Shown: positions 27,359 through 47,513 of the stretch, in pieces
How positions within the stretch are numbered: the stretch's first letter is position 1
How the letters are laid out: the number at the start of each line of letters is the position of its first letter
Assembly: GCA_001769835.1 (NCBI GenBank)
Contig: MEPR01000021.1
Location: 70,541-121,879 of the forward strand
Reading direction: 5' to 3'
Source of the DNA: Bdellovibrionales bacterium GWB1_55_8
Lineage (GTDB): Bacteria; Bdellovibrionota; UBA1018
DNA: 51,339 bases
Notes under the pieces: model-generated
Seen by the model: only the letters and a program-made list of their open reading frames with translations
Database searches by the model: none
What the model was told of the DNA's origin: nothing
Translations under genes and position numbers: made by a program

Positions 27359-27386
27359 TTGATTTGAATCTGAACGGCGCTAAACT
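27359..27386 (+). promoter_or_regulatory. Candidate promoter of the PD40 lipoprotein gene
   Basis: TTGATT, a 16-base spacer and TAAACT end 7 bases before the ATG, again implying a leaderless message. A perfect ten-base palindrome, AAACCGGTTT, at 27345-27354 sits just upstream and could be an operator. Confidence 0.45.
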
Positions 27387-27393
27387 ATTTACA

Positions 27394-28725
27394 ATGCTGC
27401 GAAGAACCCCATTCCTCATCGGAGGACTCCTCGTTACCCTGGCGGGCTGGTCTGGCTGCGGCCCAGGGATTCAGCTTTTTCCATCAGCCCTGACAGATGG
27501 CGTTATCGTGATGTTTTCTTCAAAATCCGATCTGAGCGGCACCTCGGACGGCACTCCGACAGAATCAGAGAACCTCTGGTATACCCTAACCAACGCAAGC
27601 ATAGCGAAACCCCTGACTCTGAATTCGAATTCGCTCCTGGGAAGCTTCGCGGCCTCGCTATCCCCCGATGGTAGCCGCGTGGCTTTCCACTCCTTCACAG
27701 CTCTCGATGGACTCTGGAACGGCACCGGCACGAGCTCCTACAACATCTGGCTGATGAATTCCGATGGAACCGGCATGACGCCGCTGACGAGAAACACCGC
27801 AAGCTCACTACACAGCCGGTCCCCGAACTTTTCTCCCGATTGCACCAGGCTCGTCTTCACCTCGAACACCGCACTCAGTGGCAGCTGGGACGGTACGCCG
27901 ACCGGATCCGCGAATATCTGGGTCATAGGGGCCGATGGCAGCAATCCGATCCCACTCACCGGCAACACGGCGACAGGCTTAAGCAGCTTCACCCCCGTTT
28001 TTTCACCTGATGGGAGCAAAATAGCGTTTTCCTCGATGACCGCACTCAGTGGCTTACCGGATGGGACCAGGACTCCGATGAACATCTGGATCATGAACGC
28101 CGATGGGACCGGCCTTACAGCACTCACCAGGAACACGAATACCGTTGCCGCACTGGACAGCCAACGCCCGGTATTTTCGCCGGATGGCACCAAAATCCTG
28201 TTTTCTTCAGCGATGAACCTGGAGGGAACATGGGACGGGACTCCGGCAGGAACTGAGAATATCTGGATCATGAACATTGACGGGAGCGACCTCACACCAC
28301 TCACAAAAAATCAAGGCGTCACCGCTCCGAGCATGAACGCGGAATTCTCCCCTGATGGGGCATGGATCACTTTCCAATCCAGAAGTTCGCTTTCAGGCAC
28401 CTGGAGCGCTTCCCCGGCGGGGTCCGACAACATCTGGCGAATTCGCCCGGACGGCACTGATAAAACCGCACTGACACAAAGTGAGACGGCTCCAAGCACA
28501 TTTCCCACCTACACAGGCGACGGCTCGGCACTGGTATTCTGGTCACGAGGCGCCTTGGATGGGGACTGGACAACAGCCGCTCTTTTCACTGAGAATCTCT
28601 GGGTGATGAGCGCAGACGGAAACGAAAAAATGCCCCTGACGAAAAATACCGCTTCGTCTTTCAGCGGCTCTGTCTCAACTCCGGCCGTGTTAAAAAATGG
28701 CAGCTGCCAGGGAGCCACTCCATGA
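27394..28725 (+). CDS. Seven-bladed PD40/TolB-like propeller lipoprotein
   Basis: A 443-residue exported lipoprotein with lipobox ending at Cys22 (AGWSGC). The mature part is seven repeats of roughly 60 residues, each with a SPDGSKIAFSS-type strand, an AL-G-W-GTP linker and a NIWIMNADGTG-LTPLT segment. These are PD40/WD40-like blades as in TolB, and seven would close a propeller. It probably faces the periplasm or the outer surface and binds protein or glycan; the ligand is unknown. The ATG lacks a Shine-Dalgarno site, consistent with a leaderless message. The frame is open ten codons further up to a TTG. It overlaps the next gene by 4 bases (ATGA). Confidence 0.9.
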   Translation: MLRRTPFLIGGLLVTLAGWSGCGPGIQLFPSALTDGVIVMFSSKSDLSGTSDGTPTESENLWYTLTNASIAKPLTLNSNSLLGSFAASLSPDGSRVAFHSFTALDGLWNGTGTSSYNIWLMNSDGTGMTPLTRNTASSLHSRSPNFSPDCTRLVFTSNTALSGSWDGTPTGSANIWVIGADGSNPIPLTGNTATGLSSFTPVFSPDGSKIAFSSMTALSGLPDGTRTPMNIWIMNADGTGLTALTRNTNTVAALDSQRPVFSPDGTKILFSSAMNLEGTWDGTPAGTENIWIMNIDGSDLTPLTKNQGVTAPSMNAEFSPDGAWITFQSRSSLSGTWSASPAGSDNIWRIRPDGTDKTALTQSETAPSTFPTYTGDGSALVFWSRGALDGDWTTAALFTENLWVMSADGNEKMPLTKNTASSFSGSVSTPAVLKNGSCQGATP

Positions 28726-29336: not shown

Positions 29337-30161
29337 TCACGCTTCGGCGTGGATCAATTCAATCAGGGCTTCCCGCCAGGACCTCAAACGGATCTTTCTG
29401 GAACCAAGCACCTCAGAGGCGGATCGTGCCGGTCCGTCCTGAAAATGCGCATTCGGGCGGAGCGTGATGGGCGATCGACTCCGCAGTGTTCCGACGATCG
29501 CTTCCGCTATTTCCACCGGCGTAGCCGCGCCCTCGTTCACGACATGCCAGATACCTGATTCACATTTTTCCAGGAGTCCGGCCACGACTGAGACCAGATC
29601 ACGGACGTAGGTCGGCGAACCTTGCTGCTGATCGGTAGCCTCGATCGCGGCGCCGGCGCGTGCCTTTTCCACAGCATCATCGACAAATTTCCGATGATGC
29701 GCACCGTGACCGCCAAAAACCCAGCCCGTGCGGATAATCAATGCTCCAGGACAACTCTTCTGGATCAATACCTCGGCGAGATGTTTCGTCTGACCGTAGA
29801 TATTGACCGGATCATGAGGCATCTCTTCAAAGAAAACGCTCCCGCGGGGACCATTGAAGACGGCTGCGGAAGACAGAAAAACGAAGGGAACACCGCGCGA
29901 GCGCGCATACTCCGCCAGCCCTAGCGTGCCCAGAACGTTCACTTTCATCGAAAGAAGGGGATTCCGCTCAGATTGCCGAATGTCCAACGCAGCAAGGTGG
30001 AGGATCGCCTCCGGACGAAGCGCGTCCAGCTTCTGAGTCAGAGTGAACAACTGCCCCACGTCGAGTTCCGCGCGAGACAGCTTGAGACCCCAAGGAAGAG
30101 CAGAACCGATCATCCCGCCCGCGCCGGTGACCACGATTCTTGAAAAATCAATTTTTACCAA
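29337..30161 (-). CDS. NAD(P)-dependent sugar reductase/epimerase (RmlD-like SDR)
   Basis: Extended short-chain dehydrogenase acting on nucleotide sugars. The 274 residues have the Rossmann glycine motif TGAGGMIG (12-19), the catalytic Ser region FLSSAAVFNG, and Tyr122/Lys126 in YGQTK. Overall form and order resemble dTDP-4-dehydrorhamnose reductase. Its substrate is not certain. I choose a TTG start because GAGG lies six bases before it; no ATG fits. The start overlaps the methyltransferase stop by 14 bases. Last gene of a five-gene same-strand run that begins with a collagen-like protein. Confidence 0.9.
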   Translation of the reverse strand: MVKIDFSRIVVTGAGGMIGSALPWGLKLSRAELDVGQLFTLTQKLDALRPEAILHLAALDIRQSERNPLLSMKVNVLGTLGLAEYARSRGVPFVFLSSAAVFNGPRGSVFFEEMPHDPVNIYGQTKHLAEVLIQKSCPGALIIRTGWVFGGHGAHHRKFVDDAVEKARAGAAIEATDQQQGSPTYVRDLVSVVAGLLEKCESGIWHVVNEGAATPVEIAEAIVGTLRSRSPITLRPNAHFQDGPARSASEVLGSRKIRLRSWREALIELIHAEA

Positions 30162-31401
30162 CCGGTACCTCGCGCATCTCAGGGAAAGGTATGAGGACAA
30201 CCCCGTCTTTCACGCGCTCGGCAAGCTTTGCAAGCATATCGGCCTGATAATTCCAGGAGAGAACCAGATACGCGCGGACTGAAGCATCGCCACCAGGGAG
30301 CGCGCGCAGCGCCTCCCAGCCTTGAACAGGAATGTGCATTCCCGGAACCAACCGGCCCTGTTTCAATGGCGTGTCATCGACCACGAAATCAATGTCATCG
30401 GCATTCAGGCCGCAGTAATTCAGAATGACCACACCCCGTGCCGGTGCGCCGAGAGCTATCAATTTCTTTCCGTATCTTCGCTTGAGTTCGGCGACTCTTG
30501 ACCGCAGCTCCATGCGAAACGCCGCCACTCTGGCCGGCACGCCCTGATAGGAACGGATATCCGTGAAACCTTTGGCGGCTTCCTGCGCGAGCAGTTCCGT
30601 AACCCGTTTCGATGGCGTGACCTGCCGGTCCTTCCTGCAGCCGAACACCCGGATTGACGAACCCTGGGTCGGGATGATCTCCACATCAACCACCTTGAGC
30701 CCACTCAAGTCAAAAGCCTTGCTGAGCGCGGACAAGGAAAAGCAGTAAACGTGCTCGTGATAGATCGTATCGAACTGGCCCTTGAGAATCGTATCCACCA
30801 CATACGCATTCTCCATCAGAAACGTGCCGTCCTCCGTCAGCGTTTCACGCACCCCTTTCAGCAGGGAAACAAAATCCGGAGTGTGCGCCACCACGTTCAG
30901 CGCGACCACCCAGTCTTTCCTGCCGTATCGCTGAGAAATCTTTTTTCCAAGGTCCTCGGAAAAGAAATCCGCGAGGACTTCCATCCCATTGCCCCTGACC
31001 TGCTCGGCAAGATTCCGCGCCGGATCCACACCCAGCACGCTGGCTCCTTCGCGCCTGAAAATACCGAGAAGCGTTCCATCATTCGATCCGATCTCGAGGA
31101 TGCGCTTGTCACCAAGATCCGCTAGTGATGAGCGCGACTTCACCACCTGAGCAACCTCCTCCAGGTGAGCGACGTTTGCTTTCGAAGCACCGGATAGATG
31201 CAGATAATGCGAAAAGAGATTTACCGGGGGAACACGCTCACCCAGCTGCACGAGCGCGCATTGCTCACAAAAGAACAGATCGAGAGGAAAGCCCTTTTCC
31301 TCGGGGATCTGTGCCGCCTCAAGAAAATCATTCACGGGCGGCACGCTTCCAAGTGAAAACAGGAGCGTCAGTTCCGAACTACCGCATCCGCCGCAAACCA
31401 T
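30148..31401 (-). CDS. Sugar C-methyltransferase (TylC3-like)
   Basis: SAM-dependent methyltransferase probably acting on a keto-deoxysugar nucleotide to make a branched-chain sugar. The 417 residues show the three-part family layout. An N-terminal zinc site uses Cys3, Cys6, Cys45 and Cys48. The SAM fold has LEIGSNDGT at 102-110. The conserved catalytic block DTIYHEHVYCFS (Tyr214, His215, Glu216, His217) is followed by the C-terminal Rossmann-like domain with ALGAPARGVVILNYCG. It overlaps the upstream epimerase-GT2 gene by 23 bases and the downstream reductase by 14, so all three are tightly coupled. Confidence 0.93.
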   Translation of the reverse strand: MVCGGCGSSELTLLFSLGSVPPVNDFLEAAQIPEEKGFPLDLFFCEQCALVQLGERVPPVNLFSHYLHLSGASKANVAHLEEVAQVVKSRSSLADLGDKRILEIGSNDGTLLGIFRREGASVLGVDPARNLAEQVRGNGMEVLADFFSEDLGKKISQRYGRKDWVVALNVVAHTPDFVSLLKGVRETLTEDGTFLMENAYVVDTILKGQFDTIYHEHVYCFSLSALSKAFDLSGLKVVDVEIIPTQGSSIRVFGCRKDRQVTPSKRVTELLAQEAAKGFTDIRSYQGVPARVAAFRMELRSRVAELKRRYGKKLIALGAPARGVVILNYCGLNADDIDFVVDDTPLKQGRLVPGMHIPVQGWEALRALPGGDASVRAYLVLSWNYQADMLAKLAERVKDGVVLIPFPEMREVPVGKN

Positions 31402-33292
31402 CCGCCGCCTCTTTTTTTGTGACTTCGTTGGTGCTTGCTGGTGGCACTTTCAGTCCTGACTCGGATATCCGGTCAAATATGCTGCAATACCTGAGGCCGG
31501 CGCGCGCCAGCAGAAACTTACCAAGCTCGACAAAGGTCCGCACGGCATAGACGCTCGCACCACGAATACTGTGGGAGGTGTGTTCAGCGTGATAATCCGC
31601 TTCGACGGGAACCTCGGCGACCTTCCTGCGATAATACGCGGCTTGCGCGATGATCTGGAAGCTGAAGAGGTAATTATCCGCGTTCCGCTCATAGGGAACA
31701 CGCTGAAGCAGGCTCCTCCCGTAAATCCGGAAACCGGTATGGAATTCCGTCAACGGCAGCCGGAGGACCAGACGATCAAAAAAGCTCAGAAAAATATTGG
31801 CAAAAAAACGGATGTACGGCATCCCGTTCGCGAGAGCGAGCCACTTATTCTGAAACCGCGAGCCCAGAATCAGATCCGCACCGCTCTGCATGTGCGGCAG
31901 CGCATGTGCGATCGAAGCCGGGTTGAACTGAGCCCCGTCACCATGGACCTCGACAATGTACTCGGCACCCATTTCGAGCGCCTTTTTCATTCCGGCCTTC
32001 AGATTACCCCCGTACCCGAGGTTCTTTTCATTCCGGAACACTTTGAGACCGAGCGCCTGCGCGGCCTCGTAAGTCTTGTCGCGGGATCCGTCATCCATAA
32101 CGATGATGTCATCGACGAGGTCCTTCGGAATACGCTCGTAAGCCCGCCCGATCATCCTCTCGCAGTTGTAGGCAAGCACGACAGCGATGGTTTTCTTTCT
32201 TCGGAGCGGAATAACGGAAGCCCCCTTCAAAATGACACCCGACCAGTTCGGGGTGGCGGCAGGGCTGTAGTAGCTCAAGAAAGTCGGATTGGCTTTCTTC
32301 AGAATCATCAGATTGTAATAACGTTCATCATCCATGTCGCCAAAAATCCCGTCTTCGAAGGCCTGCACCAATTCGTCGATCGCGAAACCTATATCCCGCT
32401 TCGGAACAATCCCGAGCCCTTCCCTTACCGCCTGGAATGACACGCGGTAGGAGCGCGCATCTGCACTCTCGGGGACAGTCGTCAACTCAAGCGAAGGAAA
32501 GCGGGCGTGAATCGCTCGAGCCAGATCAGAGATCCGGTAATTCAATTCATCAAGCCCGAGATTCAGAATTTTTCCGGACGCCGCATTGTCATTTCTTGAA
32601 ATGACGTCCATCAGCGCGTCGGCGGCATCCTCCACGTGCAGAAAGGGACGATACTGCTTTCCGTCTCCATGCACGATCAAAGGGTGGCCCTGATAAGCAC
32701 GCTTCACCATGACATTGACGGCAAGGTCAAACCTCATCCGGGGGGAAAAACCAAAAAGCGTGGCCGAACGGAAGACGGTCATCGCGAAACCAGGAGCATT
32801 CAATTCCATCAAGCTGGATTCGGACTGAAGCTTCGTCAGTGCATATAGCGTGAGCGGGCCGGTTTCCGAGCGCTCATTCAAGATCTTGTCCGCGGCGCCG
32901 CCATAAACGGAACACGAAGACATGAAGACAAAACGTCGAACACCTTCGAGCCTGGCTCTCCGGGCGAGCGAGACCGTAGCGAAGAAGTTCACTCGTACCG
33001 TGAGGTTCGGGTCCAGGTCAGCGGATGGATCGTTGGAAATACTTGCGAGATGAATCACGGCATCCACGCCAGAAAAGAGATCCGGGTGATTCTCATGATT
33101 GAGCATCTCGTCTTCAATGACTGTAAGGCGAGGATGTCCCTCAACGCTCCTCAATGGTTCACGTCCGAAATAGAAACAATCCAGTACCTTTACATAGAAA
33201 CCCTGCTCAAGAAGCTTCGGTACGAGGACTGATCCCAAATAACCGCCGCCACCCGTCACCAGGACCGTGCGGACCGGTTTTTCGCTCGCCAT
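31379..33292 (-). CDS. Fusion: nucleotide-sugar epimerase/dehydratase + GT2 glycosyltransferase
   Basis: One 637-residue chain with two enzyme domains. Residues 1-325 are an extended SDR epimerase/dehydratase: TGGGGYLG at 14-20, the SSCSVYGG region, and Tyr150/Lys154 in YALTK. Residues about 367-600 are a DPM1-like GT2 transferase: AVVLAYNCERMIGRAY, IIVMDDGSRDKT, the HGDGAQ metal-binding motif and the acceptor region LTEFHTGFRIYGRS. No membrane segments follow, so it is cytosolic or membrane-peripheral. I take the ATG with GGAGGT four bases before it. The GT2 part could make a polyprenyl-phosphate sugar, which a GT-C enzyme such as the next-upstream gene product would use. Confidence 0.92.
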   Translation of the reverse strand: MASEKPVRTVLVTGGGGYLGSVLVPKLLEQGFYVKVLDCFYFGREPLRSVEGHPRLTVIEDEMLNHENHPDLFSGVDAVIHLASISNDPSADLDPNLTVRVNFFATVSLARRARLEGVRRFVFMSSCSVYGGAADKILNERSETGPLTLYALTKLQSESSLMELNAPGFAMTVFRSATLFGFSPRMRFDLAVNVMVKRAYQGHPLIVHGDGKQYRPFLHVEDAADALMDVISRNDNAASGKILNLGLDELNYRISDLARAIHARFPSLELTTVPESADARSYRVSFQAVREGLGIVPKRDIGFAIDELVQAFEDGIFGDMDDERYYNLMILKKANPTFLSYYSPAATPNWSGVILKGASVIPLRRKKTIAVVLAYNCERMIGRAYERIPKDLVDDIIVMDDGSRDKTYEAAQALGLKVFRNEKNLGYGGNLKAGMKKALEMGAEYIVEVHGDGAQFNPASIAHALPHMQSGADLILGSRFQNKWLALANGMPYIRFFANIFLSFFDRLVLRLPLTEFHTGFRIYGRSLLQRVPYERNADNYLFSFQIIAQAAYYRRKVAEVPVEADYHAEHTSHSIRGASVYAVRTFVELGKFLLARAGLRYCSIFDRISESGLKVPPASTNEVTKKEAADGLRRMR

Positions 33293-33372
33293 GCTCACCT
33301 CCACGAGCTCCTTATCGGCGGAATTGTGGAGACTCTGAAGAGATAGACGCAGCGCAATAAACAGCGGCCAGC

Positions 33373-35328
33373 CTAGGGCTGTTCCGTAGTTTTTTCAGCG
33401 ATGGCCTTCAGATAGGAAAGCGCCGAGAAGTCCTTGGGAGCGAGCATCAGCTTTTGCTCCCATCTCTCCTTTGATTCACGGTAGTTCCCGAGCTGAAAAC
33501 GAATCCATGCGGCATTGTGCAGCGCCTGAATATCGTTCGGATTCCTGAATGAGAGCTCATCGAAGATGACCTGCGCTTCCGGATAGCGCTGTAACCGGAT
33601 CAGACCCAGCCCCTCTCCGAATTTTCCATCCCGATTCTCGGGCTGAACGCGTTGTACCTCCCGTGCTGCGCGAATCATATCCTCAGCACGATTCAGATCC
33701 TGGTAGATCCAGATCTGCATCACGAGGCATGGCAGAAACTTCCGGTCCGCGAGTTCATTGCAACGTTCGATCACCGGCAGGGCTTCAGCAGGTTTACCCT
33801 CGGTCTCGAACAGAAACTTCGCGTGATGATGATGGACCACGACGGAATCGGCTCCAACCGCAGCAGTGGTCAGACGGTGAATGACCTCGCGCGCTTCAGG
33901 AATTCGATGCATCGCCACCAGACAGATAACCTGGTTGATCAGCGCATACTTGTATCCGGGGGCCATCTTTTCCGAACGAATGAAAAGATCCAGCGCTTCC
34001 GCAAGCTTTCCTTGCGACATGATCTGGATGCCGAGGTTATTCAGTGCGCGGCCGTTCCCGGGATCTTTCGCCACCACATCCGACCAGAGCGTTTCCTCCG
34101 TTCTCCAGATTCTGTTCTGGTGAATGGTCACCGACGAAAAGACCAGCAGAACCGCGAGAATTGCGCCGGTCTTCAGTGTTACAGGGAGTCTCTGCAGCAC
34201 CGATGAAACCCCTGAGCTCTCCCTGACAGCGGAAATCCCAAGTACCAGGGCCGGCAAAAACAAAGCAAAGGACAGGTAATATCGATGCTCGTTGATTGGC
34301 TCACTTAAAGGGAAAAAGCTGCTGGCCGGGAGCAGGCAGATAATGTACCAGCCCATTCCGAATGCCAGAAACGGCCGGCCGGGCTCGGAGTCGCCCGGCC
34401 TCGCCCAGCGATAGGTTTTCAATAAGCTGGCAAGGATAAGAACGGCGGAACCAAGCACGGCGGGCTCGAAGAGACTTTTACTGAATCCGAACGAATGGTG
34501 CTCGACCGAGTAGCCCCATGGAGTGAAAATTTTATAAATGTAGTAAACCCAGGCGCGGAGCTGGGTGAAAAAGTACTCGTACCAGGGAAGGGTGCCGAAG
34601 ATCACCGTCCTGGAACCAAGAAGGTGGCGAACGGCCAGATACGCAAAGAGCACGCCGAAGGCGATTCCGTAGGACCGCTTGTCGCGTTTCCAATCCTTGT
34701 ACACCCAGGAGTAAAGCAGAATCACGGCGGGAAAAGAGGCTCCCTCCTCTTTAGTCAACATGCTTGCGAGCGCAAGCAGCGCCATCAGAAAAAACTTTTT
34801 TCCGAGAAAAGCCCAGAAGGCGGCAACATAAAAGACAGCGCACTGAACGGATGTCAGCGAAGATGAATAGTTCACGGCTTCCGACAGGGCGGGGTGAATC
34901 ACGAAAAGCAAAGCGCCCAACCAGAGTGAGGCCTTCGCGGTCCGGTCGACCTGCCCTTCTTTTGCGACCAGAACCATTCCGATGCGCAACGACATCCACG
35001 CAATCAGCACGTGCATCAGGATCTTATGAACGTGAAAAACCCAGACAGAGCCGTTCCCGATTGCCCAGAGAAACGCGAAGCTTACCGTGGACAGCGGGCG
35101 ATAGGGTGCGTTTTCCGGAAGAGCGGAGAGCGTCCGGTAATCAGTAAAATAACTCCAGAAGAACCGCAGATCCTGAATGAACGGGTTATCGCGGATGTTG
35201 TATATGTCATCGAAAACGAAAGCGCCGCTCAAGGAATTGGCGTAGACCAGGGCCCCGCAGGCAAGGAGCGCGACCAATCCGAAAACACTGTGCCTTGTTT
35301 CCAACACGCGAAAGAGTTTCGAGAGCAT
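33373..35328 (-). CDS. TMTC-like GT-C membrane transferase with TPR domain
   Basis: A 651-residue polytopic membrane protein. It has about ten or more hydrophobic segments up to residue ~400 and four or more TPR-like repeats from about 425 to 640 (GRALNNLGIQIMSQGKLAEA, ALHNAAWIRFQLGNYRESKE). The first luminal loop has Asp40-Asp41 (AFVFDDIYNI), the acidic pair typical of GT-C transferases. TLSALPENAPYRPLS, LTKEEG and PWGYSVEHH are motifs seen in the TMTC/DUF1736 family, whose eukaryotic members O-mannosylate proteins with lipid-linked mannose. The bacterial role is not established. It lies 71 bases downstream of the collagen-like gene, with no terminator visible between. Confidence 0.85.
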   Translation of the reverse strand: MLSKLFRVLETRHSVFGLVALLACGALVYANSLSGAFVFDDIYNIRDNPFIQDLRFFWSYFTDYRTLSALPENAPYRPLSTVSFAFLWAIGNGSVWVFHVHKILMHVLIAWMSLRIGMVLVAKEGQVDRTAKASLWLGALLFVIHPALSEAVNYSSSLTSVQCAVFYVAAFWAFLGKKFFLMALLALASMLTKEEGASFPAVILLYSWVYKDWKRDKRSYGIAFGVLFAYLAVRHLLGSRTVIFGTLPWYEYFFTQLRAWVYYIYKIFTPWGYSVEHHSFGFSKSLFEPAVLGSAVLILASLLKTYRWARPGDSEPGRPFLAFGMGWYIICLLPASSFFPLSEPINEHRYYLSFALFLPALVLGISAVRESSGVSSVLQRLPVTLKTGAILAVLLVFSSVTIHQNRIWRTEETLWSDVVAKDPGNGRALNNLGIQIMSQGKLAEALDLFIRSEKMAPGYKYALINQVICLVAMHRIPEAREVIHRLTTAAVGADSVVVHHHHAKFLFETEGKPAEALPVIERCNELADRKFLPCLVMQIWIYQDLNRAEDMIRAAREVQRVQPENRDGKFGEGLGLIRLQRYPEAQVIFDELSFRNPNDIQALHNAAWIRFQLGNYRESKERWEQKLMLAPKDFSALSYLKAIAEKTTEQP

Positions 35329-35399
35329 TCTAATAACAAACGTAGATGGAATTACCGCTCATGGCCATAGGCTTGTGGGACTTCATCCATTCACAGACG

Positions 35400-36992
35400 T
35401 CAACGGCGAATGGATCTGGACAGACGTTTCAATTCAGCCCTGAGCTCTTCAATATCCCTCGCCTGCTGCTCAAGCCGCCGAGCCTGATCTTCGTTCGATG
35501 CTTTCAGCTTCTCGATCTCGGAATTCTGATACTTCACGGCTTCAACAACCGGGGCTATCAGGTTTCCGTACTGAACGGACTTGATGCCTGTTCTGGGATC
35601 CGTCTTCACCAACTCAGGGAAAACTCTTTCCACATCCTGAGCGATGAAGCCCACGTCAGCCACATCGCTCCTGATCCACCTGAAGGAGACCCCTTGCAGC
35701 TCAAGAATCTTCCGTAACGCCTCGATACCGCCCAGTCCTTCGATCTCCGTCTTCAACCGTCGATCTGAATTGTAGAGGAATGAACCGGCAGTGATCGAAT
35801 AACTGGTGATGCTGATATTACCAGCCAGAGAGGCCGTCGTGCCGTTCCAGGAAAACGGGCTCGCACCCGTGGGACCGGTTGCTCCGGCAGGACCCGTTGG
35901 ACCCGTTGCGCCCACCGCTCCATTCGAACCAGCGGGGCCAGCCGGGCCCACGTCGCCTGTTGGACCAGCAACGCCTGGCAAGCCTGTGGGGCCGGTCGGA
36001 CCTTGAATCCCCTGAGCGCCGGTTGCACCAGCAGGACCCGTTGGACCTGTTGCGCCCACCGCTCCGTTGGAACCAGCGGGGCCAGCAGGACCCGTAGGAC
36101 CTACATCACCTGCGGGGCCTTGAATCCCCTGAGCGCCGGTCGCACCAGCAGGACCCGTAGGACCCGTTGCGCCCACCGCTCCGTTGGAACCAGCGGGGCC
36201 AGCCGGGCCCACGTCGCCTGTTGGACCAGCAACGCCTGGCAAGCCAGTGGGACCCGTCGGACCTTGAATCCCTTGAGCGCCGGTCGCGCCCGCAGGGCCC
36301 GTTGGACCCGTTGCGCCTGGGATACCCTGCGGACCGGTAGGTCCAGGTGTACCCGCAGTGCCGTCGGTCCAGGAGAATGTTACGCCATCAGCCGTATAGA
36401 GGAATTTTCCTGCAGCAGCCCCAGCGACACTGGATGCATTGTTGATCTGAAGAAACTCTTCCGGCCCGATTCCTTGCAGAGTGTCGGCTACCTGCGACTG
36501 TGGGATTGCGCTGATTGCCTGGTCAGGTGAAAGCGTCGTCGGAATTCCCGTCGATTGAGGAGTCACCGTGACTCGAAGTTTTCTGGAATCGCCCGTCGAA
36601 GGACTATACCCGCTGGGACAGTTGATCGGGGAAACCGGCACAATTCCGCGATTCGCAAATACCTGGGACATGCTCAGACCCGGATCGAAAGTGGTACGCT
36701 TCGAACTCCCGATAGCAGATCCCACCTGAACCGCAAACACGCCCATACTGCGGGTAACATCGATACTGGCCTGGTGCTCTTCGTACAACACGCAGGTACC
36801 ACTTGGATCCAGAATGGCCAAAGTCAGATCGAGTACTTCGGCCAAAGGGGCCGTTCCGCTCGCGTTAAAAAACCTGCCTTGATAGGTGAATGTTTGTGGA
36901 GTGCCGTTCGCGGCGAAGGCAGAGATTGATGCCAATAGAGCAGCGCCTGACAAACTCTTCTTCGTCAATCGTTTAGAAATTATGGAGATCAT
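35400..36992 (-). CDS. Collagen-like surface protein with S74 chaperone domain
   Basis: A 530-residue secreted fibre protein. The signal peptide is within [20 protein letters not shown]. An N-terminal globular domain (about 32-210; [26 protein letters not shown]) is shared with the second collagen-like gene. The Gly-X-Y region (about 214-376) has some 54 triplets, mainly GPT, GPA and GAT. The C-terminal peptidase-S74 intramolecular chaperone starts at [15 protein letters not shown] (about 409), with the Ser-Asp pair where such domains self-cleave. It ends in a coiled coil (490-530). S74 domains fold trimeric fibres, which fits a collagen triple helix. GAAAGG nine bases before this ATG decides the start. 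It is the first gene of the glycan-enzyme run. Confidence 0.93.
35865..36353 (-). repeat. Collagen-like Gly-X-Y repeat tract with internal duplication
   Basis: About 54 Gly-X-Y triplets without interruption. A 48-residue block starting [20 protein letters not shown] and ending AGSNGAV occurs twice, identical in protein, with starts 261 bases apart. A shortened third copy lies between them. This is tandem duplication within the gene. The tract is rich in Thr at the Y position and lacks Lys. Confidence 0.9.
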
Positions 36993-37047: not shown

Positions 37048-37076
37048 ATTATCTGATCATTTTCATCAAATATCAA
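37048..37076 (-). promoter_or_regulatory. Promoter of the first collagen-like gene
   Basis: TTGATA, a 17-base spacer and GATAAT (5/6 and 5/6). It would give a 5' leader of about 50 bases. Boxes and most of the spacer are repeated in front of the second collagen-like gene. Confidence 0.7.
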
Positions 37077-37253: not shown

Positions 37254-38090
37254 ATGAGAAGACGACCCTGGCCCATAGTCATTCTGGCGTTCATCCATAT
37301 ACTAGGTCCCATCGGGAACTTGATTCTCAGCGCGCATGTCCAGGAAATGAGTTTGGCCCAGTATTTTTTCGCTTTGATAAGGACATCCAGCACATGGGGC
37401 CTCATTGATTTCTTTGCTTTGCTTCCGATGGCGGGCGTCGCGATTTATTTGTGCAAGAAATGGAGTTACCCCATTTTCCTGCTTGTGGCCGGACTTACGA
37501 TTTACTCCAACTTCAACACCTGGTCTCAAGCGCCCGATCGATTCCCCGCATGGGGTCTTGCGCTCACACTTTTCCTGGATGCGGTTTTCGTGGGGTATTT
37601 CCTCATTCCAGCAGTACGAACCGTTTACATGGACCCTCGCATTCGCTGGTGGGAATCAAAGCCCCGTTATCTGGTCAATGCTCCGGGGTCAGTCAAGGAT
37701 GCTGACGGCGAAAAGAACGGAACTGTCGCAGACTTATCTGAAGGCGGGATATTCTTCGCTGCGGAAGAAACCATTTCGCCGCAAGAACCGGTTACAGTGC
37801 GCTTTAAAAGCGGAGACCGTGAGATCGAGGTGCGCGGCACCGTAGTTTATCACCGTAAAAACTCCGGAGCGGCGCACGGCGGCTACGGAGTCCAGTTCCT
37901 CCACACCCGCGAAACAGCCTGTGCCGTTCGAAAAATGGTCAGAAATCTGCGCCGTTCAGGGATGGAAGCCAGAGGTACCTCCGACTGGAGAGAAGACCTC
38001 ACCACCTGGTTTGTCACCCTCGCGAAGACCGGTAAAGGCCTTGTCCCCACCCCCCAGGGACAAAGGGCAGCCACAAACAACAATTCTTAA
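37254..38090 (+). CDS. Membrane protein with C-terminal PilZ domain
   Basis: A 278-residue protein with four hydrophobic segments in the first ~125 residues (PIVILAFIHILGPIGNLIL, GLIDFFALLPMAGVAIYL, YPIFLLVAGLTIY, GLALTLFLDAVFVGYFLIPA). The cytosolic PilZ domain (about 136-235) has the DLSEGG form of the DxSxxG motif at 160-165, an Arg-containing lead (SKPRYLV) and YGVQFLH. c-di-GMP binding is plausible but the Arg motif is not canonical. It could tune surface-structure production at the membrane. No Shine-Dalgarno site before the ATG. Divergent from the collagen-like gene. Confidence 0.9.
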   Translation: MRRRPWPIVILAFIHILGPIGNLILSAHVQEMSLAQYFFALIRTSSTWGLIDFFALLPMAGVAIYLCKKWSYPIFLLVAGLTIYSNFNTWSQAPDRFPAWGLALTLFLDAVFVGYFLIPAVRTVYMDPRIRWWESKPRYLVNAPGSVKDADGEKNGTVADLSEGGIFFAAEETISPQEPVTVRFKSGDREIEVRGTVVYHRKNSGAAHGGYGVQFLHTRETACAVRKMVRNLRRSGMEARGTSDWREDLTTWFVTLAKTGKGLVPTPQGQRAATNNNS

Positions 38091-38167: not shown

Positions 38168-38204
38168 TTTATGAGGTCTACCAGATGCCCGAAGGACGTT
38201 GCGG

Positions 38205-41200
38205 ATGGCTTTAAAACTGGTCAGCAAAAAACGGCTTAGCCGTTTGAGAAAACTCGCGGGGCTTATTGCCCTGGGAGTCGGTGCGCTCACCGGTTGCGCA
38301 CCCGCGGGGGATCCCTCATCCGTCAACACGGGCCCGCCGAGCGGGCTGCAATACTCATCTAACCCCGCACGATATCCTTACGGGGTCGAAATCACCCCAA
38401 ACCTGCTGTTCGCCCAAGGCTCTAAACTTCAGTCCGCAACGATCAACACCGCACTTCCTGAAGGCCTCGAATTTGATCCGATGACAGGAACGATTTCCGG
38501 CACGCCTGAATCAATCACCCCCGCGCAGGAGTTCGTCATCACGGCGCGAAATCCGCATGGCGCCAACTTCATGCGCTTGCTGCTTGAAATCACTGATCTG
38601 CCGCCAGTCATGACCTATGGCGGGGATACCGTACTTGATCTTGACGTAAACGTCGCGGCAGCCGCGATCACGCCTGATCTTGCCGGCGGCGCGGCCACAA
38701 GTTGCGAATCAGTTCCGCCCTTGCCAGCAGGCATGACCCTCTCGGACCAATGCGAAATTTCCGGGACCCCGCTTGTTGCTCAGGCAGCGACCGTTCACCT
38801 CGTCTCGGCCGTCAACTCAGGAGGAAGCTCCACCATCGCCTTTACAATCACCGTGAACGACCTGCTTCCGGTGATCAGCTACGCCGACAGTCCTTACACG
38901 TTCCATCTGGGAGTGGAGATTACCGATGTCGCCGTCGTCAGCACGGGCGGAGTGATCGCGTCCTGCACGATTGCCCCGGCATTGCCAGCCGGGCTCACAC
39001 TCAGTTCTGCATGTGGAATATCCGGCACCCCGGAAGCTCTGGCCGCAGCCACTGATTATGTGATCACCGCAATCAACGTAAACGGTGCGAACGGCACTGC
39101 AACAATCAACATTCTCGTGAACAACATTGCGCCAGCCATCAGCTTCAGCGGCAGCCCTTTCACATTCACGAAAGAAACCGCGATCGCTGCTGCAACCCCG
39201 CAAAACACAGGGAGCCCCATAACCTCATGCGCGATGGCTCCTGCCGTGCCAGCAGGGCTTTCACTATCTGACACCTGTGTTCTCAGCGGAACACCCACTG
39301 AAGCTTCCACGGCAACCGATTACACCGTCACAGCCACAAACCCGGGCGGTTCTGGCAACGCGACCATCAACATCACGATTACCGATATACCTCCGAAGCT
39401 CGTCTATTTCGGAACGTCATTCACGTTTGTTGCCGGGCAGAATGTGGAGATTGAGAGAATTCCAGCTGGAGGAGGAACCCCCGCCACCTGCGTCGCGGTC
39501 CCCGCCCTTCCCGCAGGACTTTCCATAGAAAACGCCACCTGCAAAATCAGCGGAACTCCCGCTTCAGGCGCCGCTCAGAAGAATTATTTGATTACCGCGA
39601 CCAACAGCGGTGGATCAGCACAGAAGACGTTGTCGATCACCGTTCAGGAAATACCGCCTGCGATTTCGTATGCAGGCAGCCCCTTCACCTTCCAGAACAA
39701 TATCTCACTGCCTCCGATCCCCGCCGCAAACACCGGAGGCGTGATCACGAACTGCTCAGCAGAACCGGGACTTCCCACTGGGCTCTCGCTTTCCACCTCC
39801 TGCTCGATTTCCGGGACCCCGACTGGCGTGCTGCCGGCGGCGGACTACACTATCACCGCATCGAACACTGCCGGGTCATCAACCGCAACGATCAACATCG
39901 CTGTAACCGAACAGGCACCATCAATCTCCTATGCGGGCAGTCCCTTCGTGTACGCGAAAGCTTCCGCGATAGCCACTGTGATGGCCGCCAATAGCGGGGG
40001 ACCCATCACCTCCTGCACAGCAGCGCCCGCACTTCCCGCCGGACTCTCAGTTTCGAATGCAACTTGTGCGATCTCCGGCACTCCGAGCGCAATCACCGCG
40101 GCCGCCGATTACACAATCACTGCGAACAATTCGATCGGCAGCAGCAACGCCGTAATCAATATCACGGTGAACGACTTGCCCCCTGCGATTTCCTATCCGA
40201 CAAGTCCGTTCAGTTTCACCAAAGATACAGGCATTGCTTCAACATCAGCCGTGAACACGGGCGGGGCGATCACATCCTGCAACGTGAACCCAGCCCTTCC
40301 TTCGGGCCTGTCAATTGCGGCGGACTGCACGCTCTCCGGAACTCCGAACGCACTATCCTCGGCGGCGCCCTATACGATCACAGCGAACAATACCGGAGGC
40401 AGCTCCAACGCGATCATCTCTATCAGCGTGACGGATATCCCTCCCGTAATCAGTTTCAGTCCGACGGTATTCGTTTTCACGAAAGATGACGCTATTCCCG
40501 CGATCACCGGGACCTCAACAGGAGGAGCCATCACAAGCTGCTCTTCCTCTCCCACGTTGCCTGCGGGTCTGGGTATCAATGCCACCACGTGTGAAATCAC
40601 CGGAACACCCACGTCTGTTTCAGCAGCTGCCAACTTCGTGATCACAGCCACCAACTCGGGCGGGTCGTCCGCAGTCACATTGAACATCGCCGTAAATGAT
40701 GACATGCCAGCGTTCTCTTACGCAGGCGGTCCGTTTGTCGAAAGCAAGGGAACACCGATCGATCCGCTAGTTCCCACCAGCACTGGCGGCACGATCGTCA
40801 GCTGCTCAGCCTCCCCTTCGCTTCCCGGCGGACTCAGTCTTTCCAATGGCTGTGTCATTTCCGGAACCCCCGGGGTCATCAGCGCTCCCACGGTATTCAC
40901 GATAACGGCCACCAATTCCGCAGGGACCGCTTCGGCGGCCATCGATCTGCAAGTGAACGATGTGCCTCCGGTGATTTCTTTCGCAGGCTCACCCTTCACT
41001 CACGCCGTTGGAACCCCCATTGCTCCGCTTTCACCTTCGAATACCGGAGGGGCGATTACTGGATGCAGCTCAAATCCGTTGTTGCCGGCAGGACTCAGCC
41101 TTTCGGCGGGCTGCGCATTGAGCGGAACACCGAGCGCACCCGCGCCGCAGACGGATTACGTGATCACCGCCACCAATACCGGCGGAAATTCAGATTTCAC

Positions 41201-44200
41201 GCTCAGAATAACGGTAAACGATATCGCCCCAGACATCAGCTTCGCAGGCGGGCCCTACAGTTATCCGAAAACATTGGCGATGACTCCTCTGAGCCCGGGG
41301 AACACCGGAGGAGCAGTCGTTTCGTGTGACGTCGTTCCGGCACTACCCTCCGGACTGACACTTGCCGCGAACTGTACGATCAGTGGCACCCCGACCCTCA
41401 TCACGGCTGCCACAGACTACACCGTAACGGCAACCAACACCGGCGGCTCTTCCATCAAGCTGATCAATATTACTATCAGCGATGCACCTCCCGTACTTTC
41501 GTATGTCGGAGGACCATTCACTTATACGAAGGACGCGTTGATTACCCCTCTTTCAGCCGCAAACGCGGGCGGTGTCGTAACATCCTGCATCTCCGCACCA
41601 GCCCTGCCCACAGGACTGTCATTGTCCAGCACCTGTGAAATTACCGGGACTCCTACCTCAATTACAGCCGCGAACGTTTACACAATCAGCGGCACGAACC
41701 TGGGCGGGACATCCAGCACACCTGTCACGATCACCATTGCCGACATCGCTCCGGCGATTGACTACATCCCGACATCGTATAATTTCAATTACACGAGCAA
41801 CGTCGCGATTGACCCACTTACCCCGAACAGTACCGCTGGCCCAATTGCCTCCTGCACAGTGTCGCCAGCGCTTCCTGCGGGACTGAGCATCAACTCAGGC
41901 GACTGCACCATTAGCGGCACCCCGGTCGTGGCTCGCGCGGCGACCGATTACACCGTTACCGCCACAAACTCAGGCGGGTCATCAGCCGTGATCATCACGA
42001 TCACGGTCCTTGATCAAGCTCCCGCGATTGCTTACACCGCGAATCCGTATACCTTATACCGAACGGTCGCGACCGCTCCGATCACGCCAACGAATACCGG
42101 AGGAGCCAGTAGCTCTTGCTCCTCGAGCCCGGTTTTGCCGGCGGGCCTGAGTCTCTCAGCAGCCTGCGTGGTGTCCGGCACACCAACGGTTCTCAGCGGC
42201 GCCACAAGCTACACCATCACAGCGGGAAATCCGGTAGGCAACTCAACGGCAACCATCTGGATCAGCGTCCTGGAACCCGCACCTTCAATCACCTACTCAG
42301 GAAGTCCGTTCTCATTCCAAAGAACAGTCGCGATCACTCCGCTTACGCCCATCAATATTGGCGGAACACCCGCTACCTGCACCTCTGCTCCGGTTCTGCC
42401 GGCAGGCCTGAGCATTTCGGCACTATGCGAAATCAGCGGAACACCGACGAACATTACGCCAGCCGCGGATTACACAATCACGGCAACCAACACCACGGGA
42501 TCCTCGTCTCAGACGATCAACATCGCGACGCCCGACACACCGCCTTCGATCAGCTACGCAGGCGGTCCTTATAGCTACCTGAACGGAGTAGCAATTGCCC
42601 CGCTCACCGCGGCAAATACTGGCGGGGCGACCACAGGATGCAGCTCTGCACCGGCGCTCCCTGCAGGACTCAGCTTATCGTCCACATGTGAGATTACGGG
42701 GACTCCGCCCGCTCCGGTAGCCAGCACCGATTACACGATCACCGCGACCAACTCCGGGGGATCAAGCGACGCCATCATCAACATTACAGTAGTGGACTCG
42801 CCTCCAGACCTGAACTACGCCCCTGCAAATTTCGTTTACAAGATTCGCGAGACCATCTCAAATGTGAATCCCATCAATCTCGGAGGCGCGATCACAGGAT
42901 GCAGCTCCGCGCCTGCGCTTCCTGCAGGGCTGAGCCTCTCGTCCGGCTGCGTGATTTCCGCAGCGGCAACGGTGAAGGCTGCGGCCGCTGATTACACAAT
43001 CACCGCCAGTAATTCAGGTGGTAATTCCTCGTTCGTCATAAACATCGAAGTGACGGACCTGCCGCAGATCCTGTTCTATGGATATACGGCCCTGAGCGGC
43101 GCGTTTAATGGCACGGCACCGCTGTCTCAGAATATCTGGAAAGCGGCTTCCGATGGTCAGGGCCGTGTAGCCCTCACGCAAAATTCAAACGCTTCGCTCA
43201 ACTCGATTTATCCGACATTTTCCGCCGATGGCGCGAGCGTATTGTATTCGTCTCGCCGTGACCTCAATGGGTTCACCAACGGAGCTACCAGTAATTCCTA
43301 CAACATCTGGAAATCAACACCCACCGGCACGGCACCCACAAAGCTAAGCACGAATTCAAACGCCAGCCTGGACAGCGAGCAGCCTGTTTTTTCCCCCGAT
43401 GGAACCAAAATCGCTTTCGTTTCCAAAACAGCTCTGACAGGACTGCCCGATGGCGCAGCGACACTTTCTTACAACCTTTGGGTGATGAATGCTGACGGGA
43501 CCGGAAAAACTCCACTCACTTCGAATTCAAACGCGGGGCTCGATAGCTACAGCCCTGTATTCTCGCCCGACGGTTCGGTCATCTATTTCTATTCGAAAAA
43601 CGACCTCACCAACATTGACAACGGGACTGCCCCGGGCTCATTCAATATCTGGAAAGCCAACACAGACGGCTCCGGCCGGGCCGCCTTGACAAGCGAGGTT
43701 GGCGTCGGCCGGGACTCCATGACTCCCGCGATTTCACCCGATGGCCTGACAGTCACTTACTCTTCGAAATCGCGCGTCGGCGGCATCGCCGCATTATCAT
43801 ATAATATCTGGACTATGACCTCGGCGGGAGTCAGCCGTACCCGACTTACGCCTAACATTGACGCCGGGCTCGACAGCACAGAGCCCCAATTCTCCCCCGA
43901 CGGCACAGAAATTCTGTTTGCGTCGAAGATGGCCGTGAACGCAGCTCCGGCATCGTCTTTCAACATCTGGAAAATGGCTGTCAACGGCACCAGCCAGGTG
44001 GCGCTGACCACCAATAACGACGCCAATCTGGACAGCGAATCACCCAGGTTCTCGACCGACAACCTCAAAATCGTTTTCACATCGAAGATGAATATCGGAG
44101 CTACCCCGGCCCAATCGCGGAATATCTGGATCATGAACTCAGACGGAACCAGCCCGACGCCAATCACGTCGAATACAAATGCGGGCCTCGACAGCTTCCT

Positions 44201-44280: not shown

Positions 44281-44883
44281 ATGCACGCTGAGACCCGCTG
44301 GCTGGGCTTTGCAACCTGGAATATCCTGCCGCCTCTCGCTTTCTACGCCCTGTTTCAGAGCTACGGAGCGAAGCCGGCCGTAGCTCTGGCCATTGTGCTG
44401 TCCGTGAGTCATGCGGTTTTGCATGGCACGGGAGCAACGCGAAATTCTCCGTTTTTTCTGGTGAGTTCTTTTTTTACAGTCACTTTTGGAACGCTCGATC
44501 TGATTGGCCGAACGCCTCAGTTTTACCGCTTCGAACCCTTCTTTCAGAACATGATTCTTGGGGTGGCGTTTGCCGCCACGGTATTCACGCGAGTCCCGAT
44601 CGCAGCGTGGTTCGCTGAGGGACTTCCCGCCGCATTACGGCCCAATTCGAACGAAATGAACAATGGTTACCTGCGAAAAGTGACCGGCGCCTGGGCCGGT
44701 CACTTTTTTGCCAAGGCAATGGTATTCCTCTATCTCGCCTTCCAGGTCACCCTCGCGGAACTCGTGGTTCTACGCTCCCTTATCGGAGGTTCAAGCCTTT
44801 TAATAATGATCGGAGGAGAGATCCTCATCAGGAAGAGACGCCGGCTGCGAGGGTTTCGTGCCCATCATCAATCAGTAGGTTAA
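44281..44883 (+). CDS. Multi-pass membrane protein, family unknown
   Basis: A 200-residue protein with about five hydrophobic segments (FATWNILPPLAFYALF, PAVALAIVLSVSHAVL, FFLVSSFFTVTFGTLDLI, MILGVAFAATVFTRVPIA, LRSLIGGSSLLIMIGGEILI) and a basic C-terminus. The overall pattern recalls the VC0807/septation-protein-A type of small membrane proteins, but I cannot assign it. The start lacks a clear ribosome site. It follows the giant gene by 49 bases and overlaps the end of the convergent LamG gene by 12 bases. Confidence 0.7.
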   Translation: MHAETRWLGFATWNILPPLAFYALFQSYGAKPAVALAIVLSVSHAVLHGTGATRNSPFFLVSSFFTVTFGTLDLIGRTPQFYRFEPFFQNMILGVAFAATVFTRVPIAAWFAEGLPAALRPNSNEMNNGYLRKVTGAWAGHFFAKAMVFLYLAFQVTLAELVVLRSLIGGSSLLIMIGGEILIRKRRRLRGFRAHHQSVG

Positions 44884-45630
44884 AATGATATTTTGGGACT
44901 GGTACAAGTTCTGTACTTCAGTGGCATTCAATGCGCGGTTCCAGATCCCGAGAGAAGAAACGTCACCGGTAAAATATCTTGCTTCGGTTGCCCGTCTTCC
45001 CAAGGTTGTCGTCGCGACCGAGGCGGTGATCGTTCGTTTATCAATCACACTCGCCGTCAAGACACCATCCGTATAGATTTTCCATTGCGTCGTGCCGTCC
45101 CCGACCGGAGACATCGTCCCGACGACGTGGTGCCACGCTGAATCAGCCGGAACGGCCGAATTCAGAGGCAAATTGTAAGTGGGATAACCCGTGCCCCCAA
45201 ACCAGTGACCAAACTGATAATTCCCACTGGTGATAACAAGCCCAAAGCCATCTTCGTTGTTCCAAACACCGCGTTCAAACATCTGCCCATCCGGGTTTCG
45301 CGTCCAGACGGAAACGGTGATCCCTGTAAACGCCTGTGACACTTGCGTACCGAGAGTCAGAAACTGTCCCCAGGCGAACCGCAGGTAATTACCCGACGCA
45401 CTCGCGATCGTGGAGGGACAGGTTGCTGAAGCACAGGTCGCAATAAACCCGCTTGGGGAAGAGTCCAAGAAAACGCGGTCGCCGCTCGCGCTAGCCTCAT
45501 TCAGATTCAACATCAAAACATTGTCGCTGCTGGTGCTGACCGTGGGCAAAGGCATGAACATGAATGGCATGTTGCCGCCCGCAAACACAGAGCCGGCAAA
45601 AGCGGTGAACAGCATTGCTAAGTTCCACAT
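44872..45630 (-). CDS. Secreted LamG/concanavalin-like protein
   Basis: A 252-residue exported protein with signal peptide [17 protein letters not shown]. The mature part is one LamG/laminin-G-3-type jelly roll: YLRFAWGQFLTLG, GITVSVWTRNPDGQMFERG, WHHVVGTMSPVGDGTTQWKI, YTDGVLTASV, TLGRRATEARYFTGDVSSLG and the terminal ALNATEVQNLY. Such domains bind glycans or proteins. Cys residues in ATCASATCP may form a disulfide. The ATG shares its A with the TGA of the collagen-like gene (TGATG), so the two are translationally coupled and probably function together. I reject a longer frame that would start inside that gene. Confidence 0.9.
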   Translation of the reverse strand: MWNLAMLFTAFAGSVFAGGNMPFMFMPLPTVSTSSDNVLMLNLNEASASGDRVFLDSSPSGFIATCASATCPSTIASASGNYLRFAWGQFLTLGTQVSQAFTGITVSVWTRNPDGQMFERGVWNNEDGFGLVITSGNYQFGHWFGGTGYPTYNLPLNSAVPADSAWHHVVGTMSPVGDGTTQWKIYTDGVLTASVIDKRTITASVATTTLGRRATEARYFTGDVSSLGIWNRALNATEVQNLYQSQNIILTY

Positions 45631-47513
45631 CAGAACCCCGATCCCCACGAGACGTAGACGGTGGTTCCGATTCGCATCAAGGTGTACACCGTGTGAGAAG
45701 AAGCCGTGCGAGCGGCATTTGCAGGCTTGAACCTGTAGGTGACCGTCGCTGCGTCCGTTCCTCCGGTACTCGTGGAGAAGCCGCATTGTGTCGTCCCTGT
45801 ATCGGTGACCACAAGCGTGTAGGTGCCGCCATCTCTCAAGTTGTTCAGCGTGAAATTACTCGCACAACCGTAGTCCGTGGAAATTGCGTTTCCGTTATTC
45901 CAATCCAGTGTCGACGTGCCTGATGTGATCACCTGCGAACCGGATGAAATCTGTCCGGATGCGCGCACATTGCCCGCAGAATACGCGTCGCCTGTGTTTG
46001 AAATGTTGAATTTCGTCACTCCGCCGACCTGCGCATCAACCAGTCTTTGGACGCCTGATCCAACTGCTGTCTGGGTTCGATTAATGAGCAAATCGGTGTT
46101 TGAGGCCGTTCCAGAAGTCTGGTTGTACACCGGGGTAATGGACAGGCCTCCATTGGTACCAGAAGTCTGGGTCATGATGTCACTATGGGTCATACGAATC
46201 ATGAATCCGGTTCCAGATGATAAATAGGAGGAGAGCGTGAGAGGGGTATTCACCGCCCAGGGCGAAAGCGTGGCACCACGGATTGCACCCAGGCCGCCAT
46301 TGACATAAATGGTGGACCCCGTGAATACCGTTCCGTCATTACCCACCCGGAACTTGCTCACTCCCCCCACCTGAGCATCAATCAGACTCTGAGTGCCGGG
46401 AGTCGCCCCCAGGCTTGTTTCTGTCCGGTTAATCAGAAGATCCGTATTCACGATGGAGCTGGCCCCTGCCTGATTATAAGTAGGCAAGACTTTCACACCA
46501 AAAACCGGGCCCGCCGTCGACGTATGAGTGGAAGCGATATGCAGAGAAGAAGAAGGACTCGTTGTGCCGATTCCGACATTCCCCGCAGAGTAATAAGTGT
46601 TTGCGCCGCTCAAAGCCCAAGGACTCGCACCAGCAGGACCGGTGGGACCAGCCGCGCCAGTTGCACCAGCAGGACCGGTAGGGCCCTGGACGCCAGGTAA
46701 ACCGGTCGCACCTGTCGGACCTGCTGCACCCGCTGCACCCGTTGCTCCAGTCGGACCCGCCTCACCAGCAGGACCGGTGGGACCTGTCGGACCGGTGGCG
46801 CCAGTTGCTCCGGCAGGACCGGTCGCTCCTGTAGCACCGGTCGGGCCTGGGGTTCCGGCAGTACCATCGGTCCAGGAGAATGTTACGCCATCTGCCGTAT
46901 ACAGAAACTTACCTGCGGCCGCTCCAGCTACGTTGGAAGCCTTGCTCACTTGCAGGAACTGATCTGGCGAAAGCCCTTGCAGAGTGTCGGCGACCTGAGA
47001 TTGCGGGGTCGCATTAATCACCTGATCGGGCGAAAGCGTCGTCGGAATTCCTGTTGATTCCGGGGTGACGGTCACGCGAAGTTTCCGCGAATCGCCGGCA
47101 GCAGGCACATAACCATTCGGGCAGTGAGTCGAAACAGGCAGGCTGCCTCGATTCGCGAAGACATCCGACATGCTCAAGCCGGGGTCGACGTTCGTACGTT
47201 TCAGACTTCCGACTGCTGAGCCGATCTGAACCGCGAAGACACCCATACTTCTACTGACATCGATGCTCGATTGATGTTCCTCGTACAAGACGCAGGTGCC
47301 ACTCGGATCCAGAATGGCCAACGTGAGGTCAAGTACCTCCTGCAAAGGAGCTGTCCCACTCGCGTTGAAAAACCGTCCCTGATACGTAAACGTCGGACTG
47401 CCACTGCCCTCTGCGCCCCATGAAGAGGCGGACGTGAACAAGGCACCGATCAGAAATATAAAAACGCCCAAATGTTTCAAACCAGTTATAAACACCACAA
47501 ATTTCCCTTTCAC
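45630..47513 (-). CDS. Second collagen-like surface protein, no S74 domain
   Basis: A 627-residue secreted fibre protein. Signal peptide in the first 34 residues. The globular domain (about 39-219) is closely similar to that of the first collagen-like gene ([46 protein letters not shown]). The Gly-X-Y tract (220-296) is shorter, about 25 triplets. The C-terminal half is different: [20 protein letters not shown] of the tail-fibre type, then two copies of a NTDLLINRT...DAQVGGV-KF module, then a beta-rich end ([11 protein letters not shown]). No self-cleaving chaperone is seen. The start is a GTG; another GTG five codons later fits AAAGGG better. Coupled to the LamG gene. Confidence 0.9.
46626..46856 (-). 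repeat. Collagen-like Gly-X-Y tract of the second fibre gene
   Basis: About 25 uninterrupted Gly-X-Y triplets, mainly GPT, GAT, GPA and GAA. It lies at the same place relative to the shared N-terminal domain as in the first gene, but is half as long and lacks the 48-residue duplication. Confidence 0.9.

Follow-up and report, generated by a model that had tools for sequence, protein, structure and literature searches.

Is the collagen-like fiber of Bdellovibrionales bacterium GWB1_55_8 encoded together with the enzymes that would glycosylate it? A sequence-only reading of the locus had proposed such a system, in which a branched sugar is built, loaded onto a lipid, and transferred to the threonines of the collagen outside the membrane. 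The window, that is, the whole stretch of 51,339 nucleotides that was analyzed (contig MEPR01000021.1), carries a run of housekeeping genes at positions 1-25000 (ribosomal protein L2, SecY, EF-G, Lon, ClpX, and ClpP) and is, therefore, ordinary chromosome.

Five genes on one strand

Genes for a fiber, a TMTC-like protein, an SDR-GT2 fusion, a C-methyltransferase, and an RmlD-like protein were found on the minus strand where the sequence-only reading had placed them, and domain searches agreed with the kinds of protein it had described (Table 1). The last three genes do overlap, as it had claimed: the fusion and methyltransferase genes share 23 nt, and the methyltransferase and RmlD-like genes share at most 53 nt, depending on the start. 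Gaps of 71 nt and 68 nt precede the TMTC-like and fusion genes, respectively. The consensus scan listed no minus-strand terminator in either gap, in line with the claim that none follows the fiber gene, and no flippase gene lies within the cluster. The longest fiber ORF begins at TTG 37076, but this codon falls within a promoter-like sequence, and a similar sequence precedes a second fiber at 47.6 kb. ATG 36992 is, therefore, the likely start.

Table 1. Features of the locus in window coordinates.
Feature	Position	Strand	Remark
MAT-family fiber: signal peptide, MAT_N head, collagen-like stalk, S74 chaperone	35400..36992	-	Likely ATG 36992
MAT_N head domain (NF053851)	36441..36932	-	70-82% identity to heads of three paralogs in the genome
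Collagen-like stalk: 55 uninterrupted perfect Gly-X-Y triplets, 13 GPT and 8 GAT	35865..36362	-	
S74 intramolecular chaperone domain	35604..35768	-	E 7e-16; SDRRLK fits SDxxxK
Sigma-70-like promoter TTGATA-17-GATAAT upstream of the fiber	37048..37076	-	Consensus match only
TMTC-like protein: about 11 hydrophobic segments, then TPRs	33373..35328	-	
SDR-GT2 fusion: extended SDR (nucleotide-sugar epimerase/dehydrogenase) and polyprenyl-phosphate sugar synthase-type GT2	31379..33304	-	
SDR half of the fusion	32354..33271	-	Nearest solved relative 6vo6, E 4.8e-33
GT2 half of the fusion	31475..32197	-	Nearest solved relative 5mlz, E 2.5e-16
Sugar 3-C-methyltransferase, TylC3/TcaB9 type	30148..31401	-	
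RmlD-like sugar 4-ketoreductase	29337..30200	-	ORF from 30200, likely start about 30158
Second collagen-stalked MAT fiber	45630..47513	-	Sugar genes not beside it

The fusion protein matched the Pfam families Epimerase (E 2.8e-39) and GT2 (E 1.2e-17). 4,6-Dehydratases carry a TDEVYG-type motif, in place of which the SDR half has SSCSVYG, and it is, therefore, unlikely to be a dehydratase. Its nearest solved relative is recorded as a putative epimerase/dehydratase, which we take to be Campylobacter Cj1427. Cj1427 is a C4-dehydrogenase (PMC10680097). When the solved relatives of the GT2 half were ranked, 5mlz, a dolichol-phosphate mannose synthase, came first and a chondroitin synthase second by E-value, with ArnC and GtrB (sll0501) among those that followed. 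The GT2 half thus resembles polyprenyl-phosphate sugar synthases, and synthase activity is predicted for it. It is related by profile search to the dolichol- and polyprenyl-phosphate sugar synthases DPMS, ArnC, GtrB, and PpgS, but differs from them in being fused to a sugar SDR.

The C-methyltransferase matched Methyltransf_13/14 (Pfam; E 3e-16 and 2e-35). It is of the TylC3/TcaB9 type of sugar 3-C-methyltransferase, resembles D-mycarose 3-C-methyltransferase (4rv9) over its full length (E 2.3e-72), and has the YHEH motif, here within an FDTIYHEH stretch common to it and 4rv9. In contrast to TylC3/TcaB9, no 4,6-dehydratase gene lies within the cluster. The last protein matched RmlD (Pfam; E 3.5e-48).

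The second gene was assigned to the TMTC-like, GT-C type by reasoning from motifs, topology, and Pfam TPR matches, and GT-C activity is putative. TMTCs have a DD after the first span, YRP, K-E, and C-terminal TPRs (PMC7801869). The protein carries FDD (39-41, after the first span), YRP (76), KEE (193), and NEHR (346), which are conserved in homologs; the TMTC residues D40-D41, Y76-R-P78, and K193-x-E195 are, thus, all in place. It shares these motifs, the multi-span N-terminal part, and the C-terminal TPRs with the animal O-mannosyltransferases TMTC1-4 and their prokaryotic homologs (PMC7801869), but identity is only 20-37% even among the bacterial relatives compared, and the adjoining genes point to a C-methylated sugar and not to mannose. 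No GT-C model matched the protein itself; PMT_2 matched 3 of 15 homologs (best 1.8e-6). Searched as a profile against the PDB, the membrane part gave no hit, and an AlphaFold model from a two-sequence input was confident in the TPR part only, the membrane part being poor. The four enzymes are of the kinds that the sequence-only reading had named, the second on the reasoned assignment just given.

The fiber and its paralogs

Besides Collagen (E 1.3e-25) and S74 domains (Pfam), the fiber has a head of the mosaic adhesive trimer (MAT) family (NCBIfam NF053851, Bdello_MAT_N; E 4.5e-30), scoring 104.6 bits against a curated cut-off of 60 bits. The sequence-only reading had noticed neither this membership nor the second collagen-stalked MAT of the window. 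A hydrophobic leader before the head is signal-peptide-like, as judged by eye. MAT fibers are surface adhesins of Bdellovibrio bacteriovorus that function in prey recognition, and SDxxxK is the catalytic motif of their S74 domains (Caulton et al. 2024, PMC10769870). The fiber has the same plan of signal peptide, MAT_N head, variable stalk, and S74 tip, but its stalk is collagen-like and it comes from another organism. A trimeric surface adhesin acting on prey is known for B. bacteriovorus alone, and the main text of that paper mentions neither collagen nor glycosyl (PMC10769870).

Threonine occupies the Y position in 21 of the 55 stalk triplets and the X position in 2. Since Thr at Y is widespread among bacterial collagens (PMC8968730), the Thr-richness of the stalk is weak evidence alone, and we rejected it by itself as evidence of glycosylation. 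The sequence-only reading had also drawn a parallel with BclA. The stalk does resemble the BclA collagen-like glycoproteins of Bacillus and Clostridioides spores in its Thr-rich Gly-X-Y triplets, although here the acceptor-like triplets alone are seen. C. difficile BclA3 is glycosylated by SgtA, another kind of glycosyltransferase, whereas a membrane GT-C enzyme and a lipid-linked sugar are proposed here. The parallel, therefore, extends to the proposed outcome and not to the machinery.

There are 11 MAT_N matches in the 3.8-Mb genome and a single TMTC gene. At least three other MAT paralogs are collagen-stalked, with heads 70-82% identical to that of the fiber: one in the window (47513-45630) and the others on contigs C45 and C15. 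No sugar genes were found in the flanks covered of these three; contig C15, of only 5.4 kb, is truncated there. Thr-rich stalks also occur on several MATs unlinked to sugar genes.

Recurrence of the gene set

The sequence-only reading had named recurrence in other genomes as a check. Of the phylum's 369 genomes, two have the SDR-GT2 fusion: this one and that of the distant relative Bdellovibrio sp. CG10_big_fil_rev_8_21_14_0_10_47_8 (CG10). Relatives were recovered with a two-sequence alignment as the query; the fusion sequence alone gave no match in the genome contigs. A scan of viral contigs found no relative. On one CG10 contig (PEZR01000135.1; G221:C71, L189/L209), all four sugar and transfer genes lie together on one strand in the order fusion, methyltransferase, RmlD, and TMTC, which differs from that of the window, and they abut or overlap. 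Identities are 58% for the fusion overall (68% for its GT2 half), 52% for the methyltransferase, 49% for RmlD, and 37-48% for TMTC. About 1 kb downstream of the TMTC gene, on the same strand and after two small lipoprotein-like ORFs, is a MAT-like fiber head. Its NF053851 match is sub-threshold (E 1.5e-4) and interrupted by an N-gap. We could, thus, reject the idea of a cassette confined to this genome, and the check came out in favor of the proposed gene set. The four genes keep together, close to a related fiber gene, in two distantly related genomes and, therefore, probably work as a unit.

The MAT-like head of CG10 leaves its contig at ...NWIGPAAGLT. On another contig (G221:C139), a head-like ORF, matching where the C71 head ends, continues ...QWVGSNTGLTGPTGATG into GPTGATG repeats, and a third CG10 contig starts inside a collagen-S74 gene. 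A collagen stalk on the fiber beside the CG10 cassette is, for these reasons, likely.

The sugar genes also occur, without the fusion, on a Pacearchaeota contig (L210), with identities of 51% (SDR), 67% (GT2), 46% (methyltransferase), and 43% (RmlD). They belong there to a polysaccharide locus that also encodes a flippase-type protein and a carbamoyltransferase; neither a TMTC nor a collagen or fiber gene is present in that locus, and the genome has one weak, sub-threshold collagen match. This locus led us to reject the notion that the gene set is always accompanied by a fiber. Each part of the system is of a known kind. Their combination, present in two families of the phylum, did not turn up in a limited literature search, in line with the sequence-only reading, which knew of no described system with this gene set.

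TMTC genes elsewhere were compared with collagen genes in 97 relatives. Among the matches listed, 3 of 24 non-seed TMTC loci (G021:C24, G021:C54, and G034:C14) lie within 5 kb of a collagen gene, against 0.13 expected (Poisson P 3e-4), and 0 of 20 methyltransferase loci lie within 10 kb of one. Since the test was devised after the data were seen, genome sizes were rounded, and a single genome (G021) supplies two of the three cases, this excess of TMTC homologs near collagen-like genes is only suggestive. The three loci were rejected as members of the cassette; the stretches covered have TMTC and collagen genes without the methyltransferase or fusion. The closest TMTC relatives adjoin other sugar genes, several without a fiber nearby, and several other relatives adjoin GT2, polysaccharide deacetylase, and ATP-grasp genes.

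Some further neighbors of TMTC genes were seen. S74-domain proteins are encoded beside TMTC-like genes at L145:3983-6397 (G056) and L208:12509-14521 (G256), one of them with a prepilin-type start, and a collagen-bearing lipoprotein lies near another TMTC. G021, whose contigs break inside collagen repeats, has more collagen-stalk fibers (L138:1-1190, L250:1-828, and L134:12573-14084), two with MAT-like heads as judged by eye.

A proposed pathway and its rivals

The protein families, the gene order, the recurrence of the set, and its recurrence beside a MAT-like fiber were read from the sequences; from these, we infer a reaction order, the sugar, its flipping, its transfer to protein, and the fiber as acceptor. 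The four enzymes are very probably one unit that makes and transfers a lipid-linked C-methylated sugar. The SDR half would oxidize or epimerize a nucleotide sugar, probably at C4. Oxidation there would provide the 4-keto group needed for 3-C-methylation and RmlD-type reduction, if that order is correct. The methyltransferase would then methylate C3, beside the 4-keto group, before reduction of that keto group by the RmlD-like enzyme. The GT2 half would load the sugar onto polyprenyl phosphate and, once it had been flipped across the membrane, the TMTC-like GT-C enzyme would move it to Thr/Ser of exported proteins in the periplasm. The neighboring collagen-stalk MAT fiber would be the likeliest acceptor, because a fiber gene adjoins the set in both genomes and TMTCs elsewhere lie near collagen genes, and its collagen-stalked paralogs would probably be acceptors too. 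In this way, the stalk of a surface adhesin would come to be coated with glycans.

We give a probability of about 0.5 to the reading that the cassette serves O-glycosylation with a lipid-linked C-methyl sugar and that the collagen-stalk fiber is among its likely acceptors; the cassette is well supported, and the fiber is its presumed acceptor. Only tentatively do we suggest a dedicated cassette of the Bdellovibrio phylum that puts a 3-C-methyl sugar on the collagen stalks of prey-binding MAT fibers, by way of a TMTC-like GT-C enzyme and a lipid-linked donor that the SDR-GT2 fusion protein makes. The sequence-only reading is, thus, supported in part, by the kinds of enzyme, the recurrence, the type of GT2, and the proximity of TMTC to collagen genes. 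Several points count against it and against our explanation alike: there is one TMTC for 11 MAT matches, and the other MATs with collagen stalks are not linked to sugar genes; the closest TMTC relatives adjoin other genes, several being fiber-less, and the archaeal version has neither TMTC nor fiber. Our explanation is also weakened by other points: the cluster has no flippase; a promoter-like sequence precedes the fiber gene, and 71 nt separate that gene from the TMTC gene; the TMTC-like protein matches no GT-C model, its membrane part is poorly modeled, and the co-location test was post hoc. Prokaryotic TMTC homologs have so far been noted without known function, and their activity becomes directly testable with a cassette in which one of them is tied to a lipid-linked sugar pathway as well as to a candidate acceptor. 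If the explanation is true, collagen of bacteria can be glycosylated outside the membrane, and the phylum's prey-recognition fibers would bear glycans, which would affect their stability and binding.

A polysaccharide acceptor is the main rival. The target of the cassette could be a surface polysaccharide or LPS, in the manner of Gtr-type GT2 and GT-C pairs, which decorate O-antigen, with the fiber a neighbor by chance. The sugar genes of the archaeal polysaccharide locus, which manage without fiber or TMTC, would fit this, as would the other sugar-gene settings of the methyltransferase/GT2/SDR clusters in relatives, and with 11 MAT matches per 3.8 Mb a MAT neighbor is not very rare. We nevertheless consider it unlikely, given the same four genes near a MAT-like fiber in a second family, the TMTC-collagen co-location in other genera, and a TPR domain that may point to a protein acceptor.

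A broad set of protein acceptors is also possible, in which case the TMTC-like enzyme would be a general periplasmic O-glycosyltransferase for many exported Thr/Ser-rich proteins and the fiber one among them. This seems quite improbable to us with the cassette lying beside a fiber gene both in CG10 and here, although the single TMTC gene, the Thr-rich stalks on several unlinked MATs, and the S74 proteins and collagen-bearing lipoprotein near other TMTCs are consistent with it. The fiber and the four sugar genes might even be separate transcription units with unrelated roles, adjacent in two genomes by coincidence or shared horizontal transfer. The promoter-like sequence that the fiber has in common with the unlinked second fiber and the gaps of 71 and 68 nt point in that direction, but gene order differs between the genomes and yet the fiber gene stays near, and we find this explanation barely credible.

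Other genes of the window were observed near these features. A membrane PilZ protein (37254-38090, plus strand) is encoded divergently from the fiber gene, followed by a 2010-aa lipoprotein-like protein with He_PIG Ig repeats and PD40 repeats at its end (38199-44231, plus strand); a shorter PD40 protein is encoded at 27364-28725 (plus strand). Directly 3' of the second MAT fiber is a LamG/ConA-like lectin ORF (44872-45786, minus strand, the gene probably starting at 45630; PF13385, E 6e-18), which may encode a tip protein or a partner.
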